Source of the DNA: a virus
Direction: 5' to 3' (one strand)
Virus record (IMG/VR): IMGVR_UViG_3300033148_007227
Span: 1 to 64,000 of that record
DNA length: 64,000 bases
A program made the position numbers and the translations under genes. Shown here piece after piece: positions 3,895-48,521 of the stretch. Under the pieces are notes generated by a model. It had not been told where the DNA came from and searched no databases. It worked only from the letters and a program-made list of their open reading frames with translations. The first letter of the stretch is position 1. Every line of letters begins with the position of its first letter.

Positions 3895-5070
3895 ATGAAG
3901 AATGACAAAGCAGAAAAAAAGATCAGAAAGGCAAGGGTGGGTTTGATTCTTGAGCATCCTTTTTTTGGTTCTGTTGCTCTAAGACTCCTGCTTCTTGAAG
4001 ATACTCAGTGTGATACGATGTGGACTGATGGTGTGCATCTAGGCTATAATCCAATGTTCATCGAGAATCTGAGTTTAGGTGTCATCAAAGCAGGTGTAGC
4101 TCATGAGGTCATGCACATTGCTAGTTTTCATCACACAAGGAGACAAAACAGGGATCATCAACAGTGGAATGAGGCTGGTGATCTGGCAATTAATGGTATT
4201 CTTGATAATTGTAAATTTGAAATTCCTAAAGAGTGGCTTCTTGATCCTCAATATAAGGATAAAAGTACTGAGGAAATATATGCTCTAAGATATAGACCTC
4301 CTCAGCAGAAGAAGTCTGAAGGAAAGTTGGAAGTAGGAAATGGGTTAGGACAAGGATCAGAAAAAAGTCAAGAAGAGAAAATGATGACTTTTGGAGAGGT
4401 TAGGGATTATCCGGAAAAAGATGGAAGTGCTTCTTCTGAAGCTGAGTTGAGGAATCATGAAGCTAATGTTAAGGTGATTCTATCTCAAGCTATTCAGGCT
4501 GGTAAAAGTGCAGGATCATTATCTGCTGATTTGGAAAGATATGTTAAGGAATTACTTGATCCTAAACTTTCCTGGCAAGAGATATTGCGGAGATTTGTAG
4601 AGCAATCTGCAAAAAACGATTATTCCTGGTTCCCACCTAATAGGCGATATATTCACCAAGGACTATATCTTCCTTCCTGTCATTCAGACGAACTTGGAGA
4701 GATAGTGTTGGTTGTAGATACATCTGGTTCAATTGCTCAAAAGGAACTAGATGCTTTTGCGGCTGAGATAGGTGGGATTCTTGAAGAATTTCCTACTACG
4801 ACTCTCACAGTTATTTATTGTGATAGTCAAATAAGAAATATAGAAGAAATTACAGAACTTCCTTTAGAGCTTCATCCTAAAGGGGGAGGTGGAACCAGTT
4901 TTATACCTCCCTTCGAGTGGCTTGAGAAAGAAGGAAGAGAGCCTGTATGTTTTATATATCTTACAGACGGATGTTGTAATCTTTATCCAGAAGAACCAAA
5001 TTTTCCAGTTCTTTGGGTAGGTACTCAAGATTTTACTCCTAAATTTGGTGAATTTGTGAATTTGATTTAA
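3895..5070 (+). CDS. VWA-like protein with metallopeptidase-like domain (DUF2201 type)
   Basis: A 391-residue protein. The N-terminal domain carries HEVMH (residues 70-74) and WNEAGDLAIN (91-100), the zinc-ligand pattern of the DUF2201 putative metallopeptidase domain. A charged linker follows. The C-terminal VWA domain has the MIDAS motif DTSGS (275-279) and a later TDG. MoxR ATPases commonly pair with VWA proteins, so it probably works with the product of 1678-2661. No signal peptide is seen. Whether it is an active peptidase cannot be told from sequence. Its stop overlaps the start of a 37-residue frame (TAATG). Confidence 0.88.
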   Translation: MKNDKAEKKIRKARVGLILEHPFFGSVALRLLLLEDTQCDTMWTDGVHLGYNPMFIENLSLGVIKAGVAHEVMHIASFHHTRRQNRDHQQWNEAGDLAINGILDNCKFEIPKEWLLDPQYKDKSTEEIYALRYRPPQQKKSEGKLEVGNGLGQGSEKSQEEKMMTFGEVRDYPEKDGSASSEAELRNHEANVKVILSQAIQAGKSAGSLSADLERYVKELLDPKLSWQEILRRFVEQSAKNDYSWFPPNRRYIHQGLYLPSCHSDELGEIVLVVDTSGSIAQKELDAFAAEIGGILEEFPTTTLTVIYCDSQIRNIEEITELPLELHPKGGGGTSFIPPFEWLEKEGREPVCFIYLTDGCCNLYPEEPNFPVLWVGTQDFTPKFGEFVNLI

Positions 5071-5183
5071 TGAACAATGAAAATCTAAATAAGGAGATAA
5101 AATGTGGTAGAAGGAAGAGATTTAAAGATTGTGAAGAAAGGTTTGATGATTCAGAAAGTGCCTATAAAGTTAAAAAAGTTTAG
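5070..5183 (+). CDS. small overlapping ORF, possibly the 5' part of the next gene
   Basis: A 37-residue frame starting at ATG 5070 inside the TAATG junction with the VWA gene. Its composition is coding-like (CEERFDDSESAYKVKK near the end), and it stops at TAG 5181-5183. It overlaps the next frame, which has only a GTG start, by 80 bases. It could be a separate small protein, or it could join the next frame by a +1 shift at AAAAAAG before the stop. Confidence 0.4.
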   Translation: MNNENLNKEIKCGRRKRFKDCEERFDDSESAYKVKKV

Positions 5184-5658
5184 TTTAAGAATTAAAAAAT
5201 TTGCTCTGAGTACTTGTAAATCTCGTTTATCAAGTAAATGTGCTTTACTTATAAAAAAAGAAAGATTAGGAAAAATTGATGATTTGGGTTTTCTCTTCAA
5301 GAAGTTTAATGTGAAAAATGAAGAAATAGGAAAAATGTGGGAAGTATTTGATAAGGCTTGTAATAAAGGATATTGTAATGAAAGGTTAGCTGGTTATTTT
5401 TGTAAATCATTGAGAAATTATAGAATAAATAATTATAAAAAAAGAGTTAGGGAAGTGACTAACCCATTAAAAATTGAATTATTACCAGATCAAACAATAG
5501 ATTTGGAAAGATGTATTTATATTCAAGATAGAATCAATGCTTTTAAATTTTGGTATCCTGAATATGCTTTATTGCTTGATATGTTCTTGGGAGGAAAAGA
5601 AATAAATAGAATTTCAGTTTGGAATATGGTAGAAAAGTTTGAGGAACTTATGGTATGA
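5104..5658 (+). CDS. unknown protein, faintly sigma-factor-like
   Basis: A 184-residue basic protein. The only upstream start in this frame is GTG 5104, preceded by AAGGAG. The ATG two bases earlier reads only two codons before TAG. The stretch GYFCKSLRNYRINNYKKRV recalls sigma-70 region 2-like sequences of divergent phage sigma factors. The ending with YALLLDMFLGGKEINRIS could be a region 4-like helix pair. This is a weak resemblance, and I do not name a function. Confidence 0.6.
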   Translation: MVEGRDLKIVKKGLMIQKVPIKLKKFSLRIKKFALSTCKSRLSSKCALLIKKERLGKIDDLGFLFKKFNVKNEEIGKMWEVFDKACNKGYCNERLAGYFCKSLRNYRINNYKKRVREVTNPLKIELLPDQTIDLERCIYIQDRINAFKFWYPEYALLLDMFLGGKEINRISVWNMVEKFEELMV

Positions 5659-10567: not shown

Positions 10568-11964
10568 ACACTGTGAGTGATTTTTATAGCAGATTGTATC
10601 AAGAATCAAAAGAAGTAAAAAGTCTTAATGAAGCTAAAGGATATGTTATTAATCCTATGATAGTGAAAGGAAAGAAATTTTATCAGGATATAAAGAATGT
10701 GGGTGGGGATGATATCTATTGGAGAGAACTGGAAAAGATAGCTTTGAATAGAAAATCATCTTCCTGGACTCTTGAAGATTTGTCTGATCTTCATGGATAT
10801 TTTTCTAGATTTGGATCAGCAGGGGATGTAGTTAGATTTATTCAGGATTACTTGAAACAGGAAGCAGATAAGGTGGATTGGAATGATCTATCTCGATTTG
10901 CCAAACAGATAGATGATGAAACTGATTTTAGAAATGTTGTAAATTATATGAATATCGAAGGTTCTGATCTTAAATCTAAAATTATAAGAAGTTATCTTGG
11001 TGAGTTTGTGCGGGAATATAGAGGTAAAGTTTTGGGAGAAGACTTAAATATTTCGATTAATCCTAATGAATTTGGTGTGGATACAGAAAAAGAAATTATG
11101 GATTCTATGGGAAATGCTGTTACTGAAATTGCAAAAGAAGAATCTGAAAAAATTCTTAGTACAGCGTCTAAAGAATCTAGGCATAAACTTTATGAAACTT
11201 TGATAACTCTTGCAAATGAATACTTAGATGGAGGATTAAATTCTAAACAGTTAATTAAAAAATTAGAAAAAATTGATAGAGATTTAGCTGATGGAGTTAG
11301 ACATCTGGCAGAAGAAAATGAAATTGTAAAGATGATTGAAGAACCTGAAGAAATTAAATATGTAAAGTTAAATAAAAATGTGAAGTATGGAGAAGATATA
11401 CTTGTTGAAAAAGGAAGTGTAGGAAAAGTGATAAAAGAAAATAAGAAAGAAATGACTGTAAGGTTTGATGATGGAATAATAGTAACTTCTGATAAAGATG
11501 ATTTTGAAGAAGTATCAAAAAAGAAAACAAAATCTCAAAAGTATCTGATAAAAGCTTACGCTCTTGATAATGAATCTAGGAGATCAATTGAGCGAGGATA
11601 TTGTATTGTTTGCTCAGGAAAACTGATACCTAGAAGCAGAAAGGTATTATCTTGTTCAAGTTGTAAAGCTATGTATGAAGGTTTGAGAATAAAAGCTCAG
11701 GAAGGGGTATATAACGATTATTCAGGAACAACAGCCAATCCTATTGGAATAGGTAAAGCTGTCAGAATAGAAGGGAATCCAGCTAGTGCTTATTATGGAA
11801 AAATTGGGTTAATAGAAAGAATCACAGAAGACGGCTTTATTGGGGTTAATCTTAGAGATGGTAATTACATAGAAAGACCTGCTGAAGATTTGACTCCGGC
11901 TCCTAAGCAGGATTTTTATAAGAATATTGAAAATATAAAATCTGATGTTGATATGGGGGAATAA
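10564..11964 (+). CDS. modular protein with SH3/KOW-like segments and (A/S)Q motifs
   Basis: A 466-residue protein. The N-terminal two thirds are helical. Around residues 270-320 is a small beta-rich segment (KYGEDILVEKGSVGKVIKEN..MTVRFDDG) of SH3/KOW-like character. Then comes KKKTKSQKYLIKA, a four-cysteine knuckle (CIVCSGK, then LSCSSCKAMYEG) and IKAQEGVYND. A second KOW-like segment (GIGKAVRIEGNPASAYYGKI) lies near the end. The KSQ and KAQ junctions match sites seen in capsid-region proteins (see findings). I infer a possible virion-internal protein; the function is unknown. Confidence 0.8.
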   Translation: MNTVSDFYSRLYQESKEVKSLNEAKGYVINPMIVKGKKFYQDIKNVGGDDIYWRELEKIALNRKSSSWTLEDLSDLHGYFSRFGSAGDVVRFIQDYLKQEADKVDWNDLSRFAKQIDDETDFRNVVNYMNIEGSDLKSKIIRSYLGEFVREYRGKVLGEDLNISINPNEFGVDTEKEIMDSMGNAVTEIAKEESEKILSTASKESRHKLYETLITLANEYLDGGLNSKQLIKKLEKIDRDLADGVRHLAEENEIVKMIEEPEEIKYVKLNKNVKYGEDILVEKGSVGKVIKENKKEMTVRFDDGIIVTSDKDDFEEVSKKKTKSQKYLIKAYALDNESRRSIERGYCIVCSGKLIPRSRKVLSCSSCKAMYEGLRIKAQEGVYNDYSGTTANPIGIGKAVRIEGNPASAYYGKIGLIERITEDGFIGVNLRDGNYIERPAEDLTPAPKQDFYKNIENIKSDVDMGE

Positions 11965-26388: not shown

Positions 26389-29300
26389 TTGGTAGAGATT
26401 GAATATTATGATAAATCAAAGCATAAGTTAACTGAAGAATTTAAGGATGAAGTTTATCTTTTTATACCTTCTTTGGGAATGAACTTAGTTATTATATATG
26501 ATGGAAAAATAGTTGGAGGTATAGAAGCTTATAAAAGTGGAGGAGAGATTTTTTTAAGTGCTATTTATGTTCTGTCTTCTTATTCAGGAAAAGGAATTGG
26601 AAAAGATGCAATAAGTAAGCTCTTTGATTTTTTTGGTTCTGATATAATTATTGGAGAAGCAACTGAAGATTCAATAGGTTTTTGGAAAAGTATTGGAGCT
26701 AAGTTTACTGACTCTGAAAAATTTGAATTTGAATTAACGAGGGATGATTTTATGAAAAATGCAAGTATTAAAAAGGATGTATTGGGAACCGGGAATATTC
26801 TGAGATATGTTTGTCCCTCTTGTATGGATTTAATTACATTGACTCAGGAAGATCAAGATTATTGTCCTTCATGTCAATCAAAATTGCTTCCGGTTCTTCA
26901 TGTAAACATGAGCAAGAGTAAGAATAGAAGAAGGTCTTATTTGACGGATGAAGTGGAAAATAAAATTATGGATTTAACGAATTATTTTGGTTATAGTTTG
27001 GATGATCCAGAAGTTTTGGTTGATGAACTTTCTGTTCTTTTTCCTGAATATGAATGGAGTGAATTGTTTGATATGGTTATGGATTATGAAAGAGATTATT
27101 ATGATGAAGATTATGAGGATTTGATGGAGGAGAGACTGTATAAGAAAAATAGGGAAGCTCAAAATAAAGGTAAGAAAAAGTCTCAGGAAAAAGGAACTCC
27201 TGTTTATGAGATAGAAAATTATAGTGTAGAAAATCCAGAAAACTCAAACAATAATGATAAAGGTCTTCCCGGAGGTTTGGCTGATGGGGTTCCTGATGAT
27301 GAGTTCGATCGGAAACAGTTAGAAAAAGGGATCAATGTGGAATTGGAACATACAGACGACCCTGAAATAGCTAAGGACATAGCAAAGGATCATCTCATGG
27401 AAATGAACGATTATTATGATAGGTTAGAAGAAATGGAAGAAGAAGCTAAGAAGGAAAAAACTAAAGGGGCTAAGAAAAGAATAAAAAGTCGAATAGTTAA
27501 AAACAGCACAAACGGAAATGATATATTAAGAGAAAAATGGGAGCATGAACAGCAGGAAATCCAGAATTTGATTGATGAATTTATAAACGATTGGGCTTTA
27601 GAGGCTGGAATTACTGATCCTTTTGATGATAGAATATATGATATTTTAGATGAGTTTCATGAGTTTAAAAAGAAATTTGGGTTGTTTCTAAATTTAGAAG
27701 AATTTTTTGAGAGTATTCTTGATAACTGGCCTTATGAAGAATCGAAAAAAAGTAAACGAGAAATTGGAAAAAATAAAGTTATAGGTTGGATATGGAAGAA
27801 GGCTGAGAGAGAGTGTGGGAAAAATGCTTCTGAAAAGGATGTTAGAGCATTGTATAATAAATTAAAAAATAAATATAGTGAGAAAGGTGAAATTGCTGTA
27901 TCTAGTTCTAAAAGGATAAAACTATATAGTGATGTATCTGATCCTTATAATAAAAATTATCCGTCTCAATTTATTGATGGTCTGGAAGAAGATGAAGGAG
28001 TTTATGATGATGTGGAAGTAGGTGAAGAAGTTTTGATTGATTACTTTGATCCTCTTATCAGAAGACATCGTGTTGATACAGGTTTTGTTGAGAAAATTAG
28101 AGAAGATGGTTTAATTTTAGTTAGATTAAATCATAATAATATGTTAATTAATGTTCCTCTGTTTGATGTACATAAAATTAGCAAGAAATCTTATAATAAA
28201 AATTATTCACAATCAAAGTATTCAAAAGTTAAAAAGATTATTATGGAAAGTAAAAAAAATTCTATGACCGATGAGGCTCAGAAATTTATTAGTGATAAGA
28301 TTCGTAAACTTATGGATGAAGGAAAACCACAGAACCAGGCTATTGCTATAGCTTATGAGATGGCACGAGAAAGAGGTTATGATGTTCCAAATAAACCTAA
28401 GAAATCAAAAGTTATAGACTGGGTTTGGAAAAAGGCTGAATCTAATAAGAAAAGAAGAAATAAAAAAAGAAAAAGTAAACTTCATCTAGAAGAAATATAT
28501 ATAGTCCGAGAGGATGAACCGAAGAAAACTTTGGTGGGAGTTTTTAGAGATAAGGAAAAAGCTTTTAATTATGCCTCTCTTTGGAAAGATGAGAATGGGG
28601 CTAAAGTTTATAAAATTACTGATCCAGAAAAAATAAAATTATATATTGAGTACAGATTCAACTTTGATCTTTCTAGTGATATATCTTATCCTTACTTTAG
28701 GAGTAGTGATAAAAAGAAAAAATCTGTAAATATGGATGATCTGAAAAATGTTCCTGTATCTGGTGTGTATAAACTTGGGAAGAAATCTTTGAATGAGGAT
28801 TATTCTTATTCAAAATCCAAACAGTCAAAAATGAAAAGGTTATATTATCAAACTAAGGAAGATTTAGAAAGAAGGATAACTGAACTTTCAGATAGGTTTA
28901 TGGAACTTGGTGATATGTTGAAGGAAGCTAATGCTCTTCATCAAGAAATAAAAGATATAATTAATACTATTGCTTCTGCAAGGACAGGGTTGCTCTACGA
29001 GCTTAGAAAAGTTACTGATGATTATAAGAGAATGAAAAGACGGTTTTTTAAAATTAAAAAAGCTCAATGGTTTGATACTAATGAAGATAGAGAAATTGAA
29101 GAAATGGGCAAAGATATAGAGCAACTATCAAGAGAATGGGAATCTCTTGATAGAGAAATAAGTGAGACTGAAAGGGAACTTTATGATCTTGAAAGAGATA
29201 GAGAAGATGTAAAAAGAGAAATGGAAGATGTAGCTAGAGAACTTAGTGAAGCTGGAAAAGAATTTGATATTGATACTATGAGTTATTATACATATCCTAT

Positions 29301-37046: not shown

Positions 37047-38099
37047 ATGCGAAAGAATCCTTATAGAGAATATAAGTCTGGTAGAACAGGAAAGTTATGG
37101 GAGGAAGACCCTTTTGAGAAGGATTTTGATAGAAATGGTGAGCTTAATGCTTGGGATAATAAAGATGCTGGAAATAGAATTAGTGATATTTTAAGAAGAG
37201 CTTCTTCTCAAAAAACTGAAGTTATACGTAAATCTTTAGTAGGAGAAGACGTTAGGCGACGTGTGCTTACTGCGGCGGCTAAAGACCCTCAAGAGGGGAT
37301 GAAGGTTATAGCTCAGACTCTTGGAGAAGTTGTTTACAAGATCGTGGACTATGCTGGATGGACTCGAAAGGTTCTGGATGTTGTTACTCTGAATCAGGGT
37401 GAAATATTTAGAATCCCGAAAGATGTTGATGTTCTTGGTTGGGTTGTTGCTGGTGATGGTCAAACCATAGTTTCACAGCTTCGTTCAAAGTATGTTTTCC
37501 CTGGTGAGTTCAAGAATACAGCCTTTGTGGAGATTGATATACTTGATATCGTACAGGCTAATTGGGATATTTTTGATCGTGGTGTGGATCGTGCGGCTCA
37601 GCAGATAATGAGAGGTGAGGATGTTCGGGCACAACAGCTTTTGGATAGGGTTGGTAGAACTGTCAATGATGTTGTTACCTACGCGACTTTGAATCTTAAT
37701 GTCTTTGAAGACGTGAGATTTCAGGTTGAAAGACACAGGCTGACTTGTGATAAGTTCATCATCTCAAGAAGTGAACTTTCTGACATAGTTAAAACTATGT
37801 CCACGGAAGTTGATTTTGTTACTCAGAGAGAGTTGATCCTAGCAGGTTATATTGGGAATGTTCTGAATTGTCAGATCATTACATCTGCTGGTATTGGAGT
37901 AGAGGAGGTTGTTCCTCCTGGTAGGATTTATGCTGTTACTGAGGGTAAGTATCTCGGAAGGCTTGGTGAAAGATTATCACTTCAGAGTGAAGAGTATAAT
38001 ACTCTTGTGAGAAACGAGATTAAGAAGGGTGTTGCTCAGTACGAGATTATTGGTCTTGGTAACGGTAACAGTAAGGCTGTGGCTATCGGTTCTAAGTAA
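37047..38099 (+). CDS. major capsid protein
   Basis: A 350-residue protein with TAGGAGGTAATTAAAA upstream. It is placed after protease-scaffold and decoration genes, with HK97-like features: a charged N-terminal arm, then LAQTLGE-type helix, AAQQIMRGEDVRAQQLLDRV spine-like helix and a C-terminal beta domain. Codon choice is more GC-rich than the neighbours (CGT, GTT, CTT), fitting high expression. The N-terminus contains LRRASSQ (residues 49-55), which matches the candidate protease site; cleavage would remove 55 residues. Confidence 0.8.
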   Translation: MRKNPYREYKSGRTGKLWEEDPFEKDFDRNGELNAWDNKDAGNRISDILRRASSQKTEVIRKSLVGEDVRRRVLTAAAKDPQEGMKVIAQTLGEVVYKIVDYAGWTRKVLDVVTLNQGEIFRIPKDVDVLGWVVAGDGQTIVSQLRSKYVFPGEFKNTAFVEIDILDIVQANWDIFDRGVDRAAQQIMRGEDVRAQQLLDRVGRTVNDVVTYATLNLNVFEDVRFQVERHRLTCDKFIISRSELSDIVKTMSTEVDFVTQRELILAGYIGNVLNCQIITSAGIGVEEVVPPGRIYAVTEGKYLGRLGERLSLQSEEYNTLVRNEIKKGVAQYEIIGLGNGNSKAVAIGSK

Positions 38100-38127
38100 A
38101 GTTTTTAAGTTTTAATTGGAACAATAC

Positions 38128-38152
38128 CTTTGTCTTCATGAGGAAGATAAAG
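38128..38152 (+). ncRNA. hairpin before the PLMP-domain ORF
   Basis: A 10-bp stem (38128-38137 with 38143-38152, one G-T pair) and loop ATGAG. A short GGG/CCC pairing at 38157-38169 follows. It has no T run, so it is not a terminator. It lies between the capsid gene and the PLMP-containing ORF and may be a structured leader RNA. Confidence 0.45.
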
Positions 38153-38189
38153 AGGTGGGTGAAAATCCCTGATCGAATAATGAAAGAAG

Positions 38190-39068
38190 ATGGAAAATTC
38201 AAAAAAGAGTGTTCAAGTTGTAGATTTAATATATCGAAGGTTAGAGCCTACGAGACCAGGCAAAGCCAGAAAATTATTAGGTTCAGGAAAAGCAAAGTTA
38301 TTAGATGAGGGATTGCCTTTAATTCAACTACAGAAAAAAGTATTCAAAAAGGAGGATACGAAAATGGATCGAAGGAGTATTGAAAGTTATTTTAAGGAAA
38401 ATGATGAAGTATACGTTCAAAATATTTCGGGAGGAGTAGTATCAATGAGTTTTTATTCTGGTCAAAGACCTGAACCTTTTACTCTTCCTAATGATAGAAG
38501 ACCTATAAATCTTTCTGATTATATGACTAAGGAGATAATTAAAAGTTCTCCTGATTTTAGAAAGTTGGTTATGCGGAGACCTCCTGCACTCAGGTTGCTT
38601 ACTGTTGAACAATATGAAAATACTATAAGGAAGATTGCAAAAGAAACTTCTAAAGAACCTGATGATATAGTAGAAGAAATTGCTGAAAAGATCAGTAAGC
38701 ATAGGAGTAAAGAACTTGAACCTTTAAAAGAAGAAAAAGATAGTTTGAAAATGGATGTTATGGAAACTCCTATGGATGAGGGTGTAGAAGATAATGATTT
38801 AGAAATTCCTGGAACTGCTGATACAGGGTTAAATCCTAGAGTGTTACAGATAATTTCTCAAACTTCTTCTTTGTCTGAAAATAGGATGAAAGCTTCTGAA
38901 GTGATTGATGAGCTTGGAAAGTTGAATCTGACTGTTGATGAATACAATTATGTAATTGGTGGTTGTGGTTATAAGACAGTTGTGGCTTGGGCGCAGAAAA
39001 GACTTTCAGTATTACAGAAAGAACAAAGTGAGGAAACTACAGAGAAGAATGATAATATTGAGTCGTAA
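38190..39068 (+). CDS. PLMP (RRXRR) domain fused in frame to a phage head-region protein
   Basis: A 292-residue frame. Residues 1-48 match the PLMP/RRXRR domain at the N-terminus of IscB-type proteins: VQVVD, then LEPTRPGKARKLLGSGKAKL and LPLIQL. No RuvC or HNH domain follows. An AAAAAGGAGGATACGAAA site precedes ATG 38364, so the remainder (MDRRSIESYFKENDEVYV onward, 234 residues) probably is an ordinary phage gene made from its own start. Its C-terminus is helical and acidic. Two products, fused and short, are possible. The role of the domain here is unknown. Confidence 0.7.
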   Translation: MENSKKSVQVVDLIYRRLEPTRPGKARKLLGSGKAKLLDEGLPLIQLQKKVFKKEDTKMDRRSIESYFKENDEVYVQNISGGVVSMSFYSGQRPEPFTLPNDRRPINLSDYMTKEIIKSSPDFRKLVMRRPPALRLLTVEQYENTIRKIAKETSKEPDDIVEEIAEKISKHRSKELEPLKEEKDSLKMDVMETPMDEGVEDNDLEIPGTADTGLNPRVLQIISQTSSLSENRMKASEVIDELGKLNLTVDEYNYVIGGCGYKTVVAWAQKRLSVLQKEQSEETTEKNDNIES

Positions 39069-46221: not shown

Positions 46222-46223
46222 TT

Positions 46224-46255
46224 TTTAAAATTTTTTCAGTAAATTAGGTTATCAT
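46224..46255 (+). promoter_or_regulatory. promoter-like motif, copy 4
   Basis: TTTAAAA and a T tract, then, 20 bases after the hexamer, TATCAT (46250-46255) preceded by AGGT. It directly follows the stop of the previous gene and could drive the sheath and tail genes. Confidence 0.5.
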
Positions 46256-46277
46256 AGAGAGTGTAAAAAGGAACTTT

Positions 46278-46341
46278 CTGAAACTTGATATTTATATTCA
46301 AATAGCTTCAAAGATGATTGGGATATTAAGCTAAGTTTCAG
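46278..46341 (+). ncRNA. structured RNA candidate before the tail sheath gene
   Basis: A perfect 9-bp outer stem, CTGAAACTT (46278-46286) with AAGTTTCAG (46333-46341), encloses an inner stem AGCTT (46304-46308) with AAGCT (46328-46332). The two right arms abut, so the helices could stack. It sits between the promoter-like motif and the short PLMP frame. There is no T run, which argues against a terminator. Confidence 0.5.
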
Positions 46342-46361
46342 TAGTTAAGGAGATTGCTTAA

Positions 46362-46493
46362 ATGTAAAAAATTTTTGTGGTTGATAGGAAAGGAAAGTCA
46401 TTTCTTTCGACTTGTTCTACAAGAGCAAGATTATTATTGAAGAAAAATAAAGCTAAAATTATATATGGTTTTCCATTCGTAATTCAGTTGTAA
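46362..46493 (+). pseudogene. orphan PLMP (RRXRR) domain ORF with a stop at codon 2
   Basis: ATG 46362 follows AAGGAG, but the next codon is TAA. After it the frame reads KIFVVDRKGK, then SFLSTCSTRARLLLKKNKAK and IIYGFPFVIQL, then TAA 46491-46493. This is a full PLMP/RRXRR domain, as at the N-terminus of IscB, and nothing follows it. GTG 46377 could start a 38-residue version. It is a relic, or a micro-protein using an unusual start. Confidence 0.65.
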
Positions 46494-46520
46494 ATTGAAT
46501 AAAAAGGGAGGTCATGTAAG

Positions 46521-48521
46521 ATGACACAATATATTGAGCCTGGAACTTATATAACTGAGTTGTTTAAACCTCAAGCTGTTATTCCTCCTGGTTTGGGTTT
46601 GAATCTAGTTATTGTAGGAGTAGGGAGTAAACAAAAGTCTATAGTCAATGAGGAAGTTTTGAGAGGAGGAATATATAATGAACTTTTGACTGTGTCCGGT
46701 ACGTCTCCTCATTCAGCTACGTTGGTTAATACTTCAGATCAGAAAAAGGAAAACACAACTATTTATGCTGATGGAATTGCTCTGACTTTGGATCAGTGGC
46801 AGTTTAATTCTGCTACTGAGGTTCAGATTCTTGATGCTTATTTTAATTCAGGAGCTACTTATACAATAGATTATGTAGCGATTGATTCATATATTGATGA
46901 TCTTGATAATGAAATTCAAAGTGTGGATAAGGTGGGTTTGTTTTCTGGAAGTTCAAATTACAAAGAAAATGAGGATTTTCAAATAACAGGTGGTGATATT
47001 GATTGGACAATATTAACTGATGCGGAGTTTACTGGATTAAATACTGAAACTTTTGATGTATCTACCAATAAAAATTTGAAGCTGAGTTTAGATGGAAAAC
47101 CTTCTATAACGATTGATGTTTCTGCGACCGCATCTGATCCTGCAAATGCGACTGCGACTGAGATTGTTACTGACATTAATGCGGCTTTGGTGGCAAGTGG
47201 AGATTATGGAGCTGATTATGGATCGGTTGCTTCTGATGTTGGTGGAAAAGTTAAACTTACTGCTCCAGGTCTTGATCCTTATGTCGGGATCAATTCTATA
47301 ATAACTTTGTTTACCACAACTGATTCTGCTCTTGATACAATTTTTGGTTTGTCTGAAGATGATGCTCCTTATGAGTATAGAGGAACAGGAAAGAGACCTT
47401 TAGCTGGTCAAACATATTTTGTGGATTATAAAATAACTAGACCTAGCTCAGATTATAATAAAGTAAGACAATTTAATAATGATATTGATTTTTACAATGA
47501 CATAGGTTACCCGGCTGAGGGTAATACATTGGCTAATGCGGGAGAGTTGGCTTGGTCAAGAGGTGTTTTAACTCTGTTTGTTGTTCAGGTGGAAGATGCT
47601 GATGATGATGGGGTTTATACAAATTCTGATTTTATTACTGCAATTGATGCTCTTGTGGATGAGAGAGAGGCTACTGATATTGTGGTCTTGAGAAGTAATG
47701 CTACGATAAGAGCAAAGGTGAGAGATGTACTTACAAATGAGAGTGCGCAACTGAAATCAAACTATAAGAGATATTGGTGTGGGATGCCAAGAGGATCATC
47801 TTTGGGAGATGTAGATACTCCTGATACGGCTATTTGGGTGGCCCAGAGAGAGTTTTCTGTCACCCCTGATTCAGTAGCAAGAGGAAGATTTATAGTTATC
47901 TTTCCTTCTGATTTACAACAGACGATTGTTGAGAATACAACAGAAAAAATTCTTGATGTTGATTCTAATTATATGGCTACGATTCTTGCGGCCGAGACTG
48001 TAAGTTTTGAAAATGCAAGTAATAGTCTCTTTGGAAAAACTTTCTCAGGGTTGACAGTTGAAAATAATCTCAGTAAGGCTGATATGAGATTTGCGGCGGC
48101 TAACGGTATAACTTGTGTTTTCCAGGAAGGGGGAGTATTGAAGTTGTTTGATGTTCTTACTACCGATGCTTCCGGGGATGCAAGATATGAAGAACCTTCA
48201 AGCTCTACACAGAAAGATAATTTAGCTTTCAAAATGATTGATGCTATTGATAATAATTTAAAAGGGATAGTACCTGATAATCCTTCAGAATTTGTTGGTA
48301 CTATTAAAGCGGTTGCTGGAGGAGTTATACTTGGAGAAATTGAATCTGGTAATATTGGATACTATACAGATGATGATGGGAATGTGAGAGATATAGATTA
48401 TAATGTTGATCTAGTAGCTTTCAGAGAAGCTGGTGATCCTAGAAATTATCGGTTGAGATACTACTTTAATTTGAGATATGTTGCTAAGAGATTCTTTGGT
48501 GAGTTCACCGTTACGATTTAA
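46521..48521 (+). CDS. contractile tail sheath protein
   Basis: A 666-residue protein with AAAGGGAGGTC before the ATG. It begins MTQYIEPGTYITEL like myovirus sheath proteins and has the large variable insert domain. The conserved C-terminal domain (PSEFVGTIKAVAGGVILGEI, then NYRLRYYFNLRYVAKRFFGE) carries the fold shared by sheath proteins. It polymerises around the tube and contracts at infection. This gene establishes the phage as a myovirus type. Confidence 0.93.
   Translation: MTQYIEPGTYITELFKPQAVIPPGLGLNLVIVGVGSKQKSIVNEEVLRGGIYNELLTVSGTSPHSATLVNTSDQKKENTTIYADGIALTLDQWQFNSATEVQILDAYFNSGATYTIDYVAIDSYIDDLDNEIQSVDKVGLFSGSSNYKENEDFQITGGDIDWTILTDAEFTGLNTETFDVSTNKNLKLSLDGKPSITIDVSATASDPANATATEIVTDINAALVASGDYGADYGSVASDVGGKVKLTAPGLDPYVGINSIITLFTTTDSALDTIFGLSEDDAPYEYRGTGKRPLAGQTYFVDYKITRPSSDYNKVRQFNNDIDFYNDIGYPAEGNTLANAGELAWSRGVLTLFVVQVEDADDDGVYTNSDFITAIDALVDEREATDIVVLRSNATIRAKVRDVLTNESAQLKSNYKRYWCGMPRGSSLGDVDTPDTAIWVAQREFSVTPDSVARGRFIVIFPSDLQQTIVENTTEKILDVDSNYMATILAAETVSFENASNSLFGKTFSGLTVENNLSKADMRFAAANGITCVFQEGGVLKLFDVLTTDASGDARYEEPSSSTQKDNLAFKMIDAIDNNLKGIVPDNPSEFVGTIKAVAGGVILGEIESGNIGYYTDDDGNVRDIDYNVDLVAFREAGDPRNYRLRYYFNLRYVAKRFFGEFTVTI

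Follow-up and report, generated by a model that had tools for sequence, protein, structure and literature searches.

The PLMP domain is otherwise known from ancestors of Cas9. In IsrB it contacts the tandem omegaRNA hairpins SL7 and SL8 just before the protein's own start codon, and SL7 contains the Shine-Dalgarno (SD) sequence of the IsrB gene; a contribution to expression was suggested in the same study (PMC9581776). The terminal hairpins of the IscB RNA are likewise recognised by PLMP (PMC9640706). Contact of the domain with hairpins beside its own ribosome site is thus described, the expression role being a suggestion, and in both proteins PLMP also touches protein domains, namely RuvC or TI (PMC9581776, PMC9640706). 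Here we describe a phage locus that is best read as a reuse of PLMP alongside a leader RNA in a gene with two starts. Such phages seem to retain just PLMP and the start-proximal hairpins, without the nuclease; if this is true, the suggested expression role of PLMP becomes testable in a minimal system, and a route for the reuse of RNA-guided nuclease parts would be apparent.

The window analysed is a stretch of 64,000 nucleotides contained in a viral record of 103,855 bases; all features named lie on its plus strand. A major capsid (head) protein gene at 37047-38099 (phrog_2522, major head protein, E 2.8e-44) is followed by a 90-base leader and the open reading frame 38190-39068. By the strict descriptor defined below, the leader holds a core at 38126-38169, consisting of an ACC (38126-38128), hairpin P2 (38128-38152), a GAG (38152-38154) and hairpin P3, GGGTGAAAATCCC (38157-38169). 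Read from 38190, the frame encodes a long form of 292 aa in which the PLMP (RRXRR) domain (38211-38357) is fused to a downstream protein, here called the body. The frame also contains an internal SD, AAGGAGG (38349-38355), followed by an in-frame ATG at the junction, from which, as the related loci also indicate, a short form lacking PLMP would be read (38364-39068). An earlier note on this sequence had proposed a PLMP domain within 38100-38363 that runs without a stop into a gene with a strong ribosome site and its ATG at 38364, preceded by a 10-bp hairpin with a 5-base loop. The hairpin is present and corresponds to P2, the stop-free run and its start signals are read directly in the sequence, and the domain was confirmed by a Pfam match over the cut-off together with a fold match to the PLMP of IscB and IsrB.

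The N-terminal domain belongs to the PLMP/RRXRR family. Profile PF14239 matched aa 8-56 of the 292-aa frame with 25.5 bits (cut-off 25), and 38211-38357 with 25.8 bits when the whole record was searched; the match covers profile positions 1-49 of 174 only. Across related records the profile exceeded its cut-off in 11/13 and 20/27. A phage PLMP profile built from 30 loci, one of them identical to the window copy and with the tandem loci L080 and L081 left out, scored the window domain at 58.7 bits and recovered six of six control IscB/IsrB genes. When an 11-row alignment profile was compared with PDB sequences, eight distinct sequences matched at E<=1 (best 3.4e-7), all of them IscB and all over the PLMP part. 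An AlphaFold2 model of the protein had a mean pLDDT of 76.8, with blocks over aa 11-50 at 81-89. Its residues 6-57 superposed on 9k2z with Z 9.2 (1.8 Å over 52 residues), on 9k30 with Z 8.9 (1.5 Å over 50 residues) and on IsrB 8dmb with Z 8.0 (3.0 Å over 52 residues). Nine IscB/IsrB chains were matched at Z 9.2-7.5, six of them at 8.0 or above, the value below which the tool warns that a match can mean a common arrangement, and the next unrelated row stood at Z 5.5. Foldseek E values for the IscB matches were weak, 5e-3 at best. A likeness of PLMP to the N-domain of IF3 has been reported (PMC9581776); the phage domain shares this weak fold likeness (Z 3.1-3.7; 1tif Z 3.1, 9a5a Z 3.7), but the match is far weaker than that to IscB and IsrB.

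With the IscB/IsrB OMEGA systems the phage gene has in common the PLMP fold and a structured RNA directly 5' of the PLMP start codon, but its protein is without RuvC, bridge helix, HNH or TI part, and no other Pfam family matched ORF 38190-39068 at E<=0.01. The HEARO model gave no match at E<=10 in the window leader or that of L019, and none at its gathering score in eight relatives; the positive control L042 was detected at E 1.7e-5 with 35.2 bits, below the gathering score of 83. The phage protein is not an IscB or IsrB, as the match ends at position 49 of the profile and no nuclease domain comes after PLMP; a HEARO-type leader was likewise not found by these searches. At gathering scores no Rfam family matched the window, and at E<=10 the window leader, the L019 leader and the 46 kb element returned only families far below theirs. 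When the PLMP of DtIsrB served as seed, 10 phage records were matched, and the two loci examined among them carry longer genes, IsrB-like by size (a 365-aa CDS and a 395-codon frame). Apparent IsrB-like phage genes were seen in L042 (Microcystis phage MaMV-DC, 2290-3601) and L043 (LR745208), the MaMV-DC gene with a HEARO match below the gathering score.

Scanning viral contigs with a 12-row alignment yielded 43 loci, and again 43 once L093 and L094, whose records equal that of L092 in size and give the same match, had been dropped and L016 and L011 included; removal of near-copies left 34 distinct loci. Related phages carry the domain at the place of 38190: 32 of the 34 loci have an in-frame fusion of PLMP to the same body protein, and the capsid gene was found upstream in 33/34. 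Ten aligned relatives were 23-51% identical to the window protein. In L080 and L081 two tandem PLMP domains precede the body (two profile matches each). PLMP is absent at L074 and L095, and PF14239 found none anywhere in these two records (47 and 37 kb). The PLMP-less loci sit apart in a body tree of 33 rows, drawn without the partial L103 and with L095 as a long branch, in which well-supported branches force two changes. L095 keeps a large hairpin 3' of the capsid gene, the SD and the body start, the leader core being absent; L074 has other open frames 3' of its capsid gene. The apparent joint loss of PLMP and leader core, seen in two loci only, is suggestive but not strong. By these comparisons the arrangement is real and conserved, and a family of large phages keeps PLMP as an optional front end of the gene beside the capsid gene.

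Among named phages the nearest relative is Rctr197k (KX853510, L011), the sole match when the L010 protein was searched against them. It has the same post-capsid gene, again beginning with an in-frame PLMP, but the domain has diverged and scores 15.2 bits, under the Pfam cut-off; the annotation is only a misc_feature. Searches by tblastn gave no match for the window protein in named phages, nor for the PLMP domain of one relative in named phages and plasmids. In eight named phages with capsid proteins 24-27% identical, none of the genes 3' of the capsid gene clearly matched the fusion profile; BcepSauron scored highest, with 11 bits (E 2.8e-4) in a variable region. No relative of the PLMP-body fusion was found in genome contigs, and in the open-licence literature searched no title or abstract opening described this phage PLMP arrangement.

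The start signals of the gene are distributed unevenly over its two starts. At the junction ATG, an SD match of at least five bases was found in 29 of the 32 PLMP loci, compared with 20/218 at other in-frame ATGs of the same ORFs; at the upstream PLMP start, which was picked by script and may be wrong in single cases, such a match occurred in 3/32. The internal SD overlies different amino acids in different clades (IRRK, PREDK, KEDTK), and AGG and AGA are used there even in relatives where both are minority arginine codons, which suggests that the ribosome site is itself under selection. The conserved internal ribosome site and start codon would make this a nested in-frame gene, likely to yield a long form from a weak start and a short form from a strong one. 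Nested in-frame phage genes are known from lambda C/Nu3, where two products come from one frame via an internal ribosome site, as is expected here; the present gene differs in that its extra N-terminal part is a PLMP domain beside a leader RNA.

The earlier description of a head-region gene holds for its position beside the capsid gene but found no counterpart in function. In PHROGs the body matched, weakly, a family without function, and a fold search against viral models returned uncharacterised proteins of 203-246 aa, those of PaBG and Motura among them. Weak PLMP-less relatives of the body occur in PaBG, NCTB and Y3 (E 7.4e-6 to 2.9e-4; three of six records searched), at PaBG 112347-113018, Y3 188632-189291 and NCTB 4835-5473, where they lie near primase genes and not in the capsid cluster. 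The PaBG paper reports 14 virion proteins, and a term search of it did not find the body relative PaBG_00154 among them. Gene position is the sole basis for calling the body a head protein.

Taken by itself the window leader is inconspicuous: 38100-38210 folded no better than shuffled sequence (z -0.12), as was the case for the L015 leader (z -0.15). With no unusual stability in the window leader on its own, the case for a structured leader comes from comparison. A longer leader is common to eight relatives, and in the seven that were aligned (L017-L022, L041) it shows strong covariation. Over about 190 bases they form six helices, with the start codon in or beside the loop of the last small helix. 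In a structure derived from one of the aligned sequences, 92.1% of cells were paired, helix 2 being 64.5% paired and helix 4 invariant. Both sides had changed in 27 of 42 pairs, compared with 13.8 in shuffles, none of 500 of which was as high; the count of further pair types was less extreme (14/500 as high). A possible CCACC-GGTGG loop pairing in the seven leaders recalls the nexus pseudoknot. Model R1, built from these seven relatives, matched L066, outside its building set, at 101.4 bits, and among 23 further loci L066 was a strong match and L085, L091 and L103 weak ones. The window gave a single R1 match at E<=10 (38083-38203, 12.3 bits, E 0.048), and L010, L009, L011 and L023 gave none at that threshold. 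The motif AGGTGGGTGAAANNCCC of the seven leaders occurs exactly at 38153-38169, its sole exact place in the window. The pattern AGGTGGGTGAAANNCCCG was found in 11 stretches of viral contigs, three of them known leaders; by eye, no PLMP was seen at the other eight.

A shorter core, recognised when all leaders were read, was written as a descriptor: ACC, hairpin P2, GAG, a few bases and hairpin P3. Its strict version fitted 20 of the 34 loci and a relaxed version 24. One or the other fitted 27/32 PLMP loci and 0/2 PLMP-less loci, against 3/383 control regions taken from 5' of other ORFs in these loci and 26/3400 shuffles; these counts overstate independence, because the same phage leaders had been read before the descriptor was drawn up, the loci share ancestry and an SD-like GAG is common before genes. 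Two MAFFT alignments of the core contained alignment errors and did not enter the counts. On the plus strand of the window the strict descriptor fitted three places, one of them 38126. No core was found by the descriptor, nor by R1 at E<=1, in the PLMP loci L069, L079, L080 and L081; in L069, L079 and L080, 1.6-5.1 kb of other sequence lies between the capsid gene and PLMP. L066, the fifth PLMP locus that the descriptor does not fit, is the one matched strongly by R1. Taken together, the leaders hold a conserved RNA structure near the start codon, less clearly so for the window leader itself. In L010 a second core-like stretch was noticed by eye at 11045-11140, immediately 3' of the capsid stop codon and before an inserted ORF; it reads ACC, a short hairpin, GAGGT and a GGGC hairpin, and the PLMP gene's own core lies further on.

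We then applied the phage descriptor, fixed beforehand, to the 200 bases before the PLMP part of genomic IscB/IsrB genes. It fitted 9 of 24 distinct leaders in a first set, several of them from the same genomes, with controls at 1/80 and shuffles at 41/4800. In a second, fresh set of 36 leaders (46 parsed, 10 near-copies dropped) it fitted five, with controls at 0/116 and shuffles at 27/3600; in one of the five, L193, the match lies away from the start. Pooled, a core motif with a similar ACC-hairpin-GAG signature is present in 14/60 parsed IscB/IsrB leaders, and most leaders do not fit. The order UNACC, hairpin, GAG, start is found in many IscB leaders as it is in phage leaders. By eye, many other leaders of the IscB/IsrB loci (L104-L141, L156-L208) have an ACC, then a hairpin of only a few bases, and a GAG immediately 5' of the ATG. 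The start-proximal terminal hairpin of IscB leaders falls beyond the end of the HEARO model, whose consensus ends, again by eye, in UUAC-like letters at that place. Because the core motif recurs in 14/60 leaders, descent from an OMEGA locus is possible: a phage ancestor might have kept the RNA-contacting head and the start-proximal guide-RNA hairpin. We put forward tentatively that leader and PLMP are such a domesticated OMEGA locus, in which guide and nuclease were lost and the pair was reused as a translational switch for the gene 3' of the capsid gene.

For the element at 38190, the model with the best support is control of translation through an RNA-binding domain, with binding putative. 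Two products would come from the gene after the capsid gene: the strong internal ribosome site (38349/38364) would start a short form, and the weak site at 38190 a long form that carries the N-terminal PLMP. The PLMP of the long form would bind its own leader at the tandem hairpins (38126-38169), near the upstream start, and as product accumulates the bound long form would lower or tune translation of the long form, perhaps that of the whole gene. We propose that the long form binds its own leader because the phage keeps the pair found in IsrB and IscB, PLMP and start-proximal hairpins; relatives conserve PLMP jointly with the leader motif and the internal ribosome site. Putative binding of the long form to its leader, tuning its own translation, seems to us somewhat probable. 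We infer all three of its elements, namely production of both forms, binding of the leader by PLMP and the direction in which regulation runs. The distance from core to PLMP start ranges from -5 to 104 nt, and the seven loci at 83-104 nt fit a simple occlusion model badly. Phage translational repressors of the MS2 coat protein type bind an operator hairpin at a start codon. The present locus shares with them a phage product with a putative RNA-binding part and hairpins near the start codon, but PLMP has a different fold, its binding is putative and a second, internal start lies downstream.

PLMP might instead have no RNA role and serve a dual-start phage protein in assembly or in contacts with other proteins, the hairpins acting separately, for example in mRNA stability or in setting the ratio of capsid to downstream protein. 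Conservation of the internal start signal and of the in-frame fusion would be expected of such a domain, the PLMP of IsrB and IscB also contacts RuvC or TI domains (PMC9581776, PMC9640706), and four PLMP loci are without a leader core. The joint presence of core and PLMP in 27/32 loci and the lack of both in 2/2 argue against it, however, as does the contact known between PLMP and RNA, which involves hairpins at the 5' end of its own gene (PMC9581776), and we consider this explanation unlikely. Still less probable is transcriptional control, in which the first large hairpin and a T run form a leaky terminator and PLMP on the nascent leader alters read-through. In many relatives the first large hairpin is followed by a short T run, and the seven aligned leaders have TTTACC or TTTTACC directly 3' of a GC-rich hairpin; the window leader, however, is without such a first hairpin, and the weak SD at the PLMP start and the nearby hairpins point to translation.

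Over the PLMP part, pN was below pS in 8/8 pairs (for example 0.028 versus 0.423 and 0.288 versus 0.671), the weakest being the tandem pair L080/L081 (0.172 versus 0.396); one pair was too close to judge and several dS values were saturated. In the four pairs with a finite dS above 0.1, dN/dS was about 0.05 to 0.35. The PLMP at 38190 is conserved and under purifying selection. Decay of a former mobile gene of the IscB/IshB type, with a remnant left in frame by chance, is a very improbable origin for it, for although PLMP is otherwise known from such mobile elements and the second PLMP stretch of the window looks like a remnant, the domain keeps the same place and frame in 32/34 loci at 23-51% identity (10 aligned), with pN below pS in every pair.

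This second PLMP-coding stretch, at 46371-46490, scored 31.8 bits in the whole-record PF14239 search and 33.2 bits with a phage PLMP profile lacking this copy. It is preceded by an SD and an ATG (46362) that runs immediately into a TAA (46365), and it ends in a TAA before the gene at 46521, to which it is not fused. No leader motif was found at the element by the strict descriptor, and 46222-46380 folded no better than chance (z 0.28). The gene at 46521 gave no family match and is putatively a sheath gene by reading of its sequence. The window insert that holds the stretch (46222-46520) is absent in L010, where the gap between the neighbouring genes is about 20 bases as against 299 in the window. 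Two separate PLMP places were found by PF14239 only in three records nearly identical to the window, out of 40 scanned (13 + 27, many of them fragments). The unfused ATG-TAA layout, the absence in L010 and the restriction to three near-identical records suggest that the 46371 PLMP is probably a separate, younger and lineage-specific insertion, not a copy of the first cassette. The earlier view of the two elements as copies of one layout therefore stands in so far as a PLMP stretch does precede the gene at 46521, but not for its fusion, leader motif or fold, and a repeated regulatory cassette is not borne out by the distribution of the two places. The alternative offered there, two insertions of a mobile remnant, is plausible for 46371 but not for the conserved domain at 38190.

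In Rctr197k an ORF annotated as a putative homing endonuclease precedes the counterpart of the gene at 46521. Intergenic ORFs resembling homing endonucleases, next to the places of PLMP elements, were noted at 26555-27442 of this phage (L011), the only one so annotated, and, by eye, 5' of the PLMP ORF in L080.
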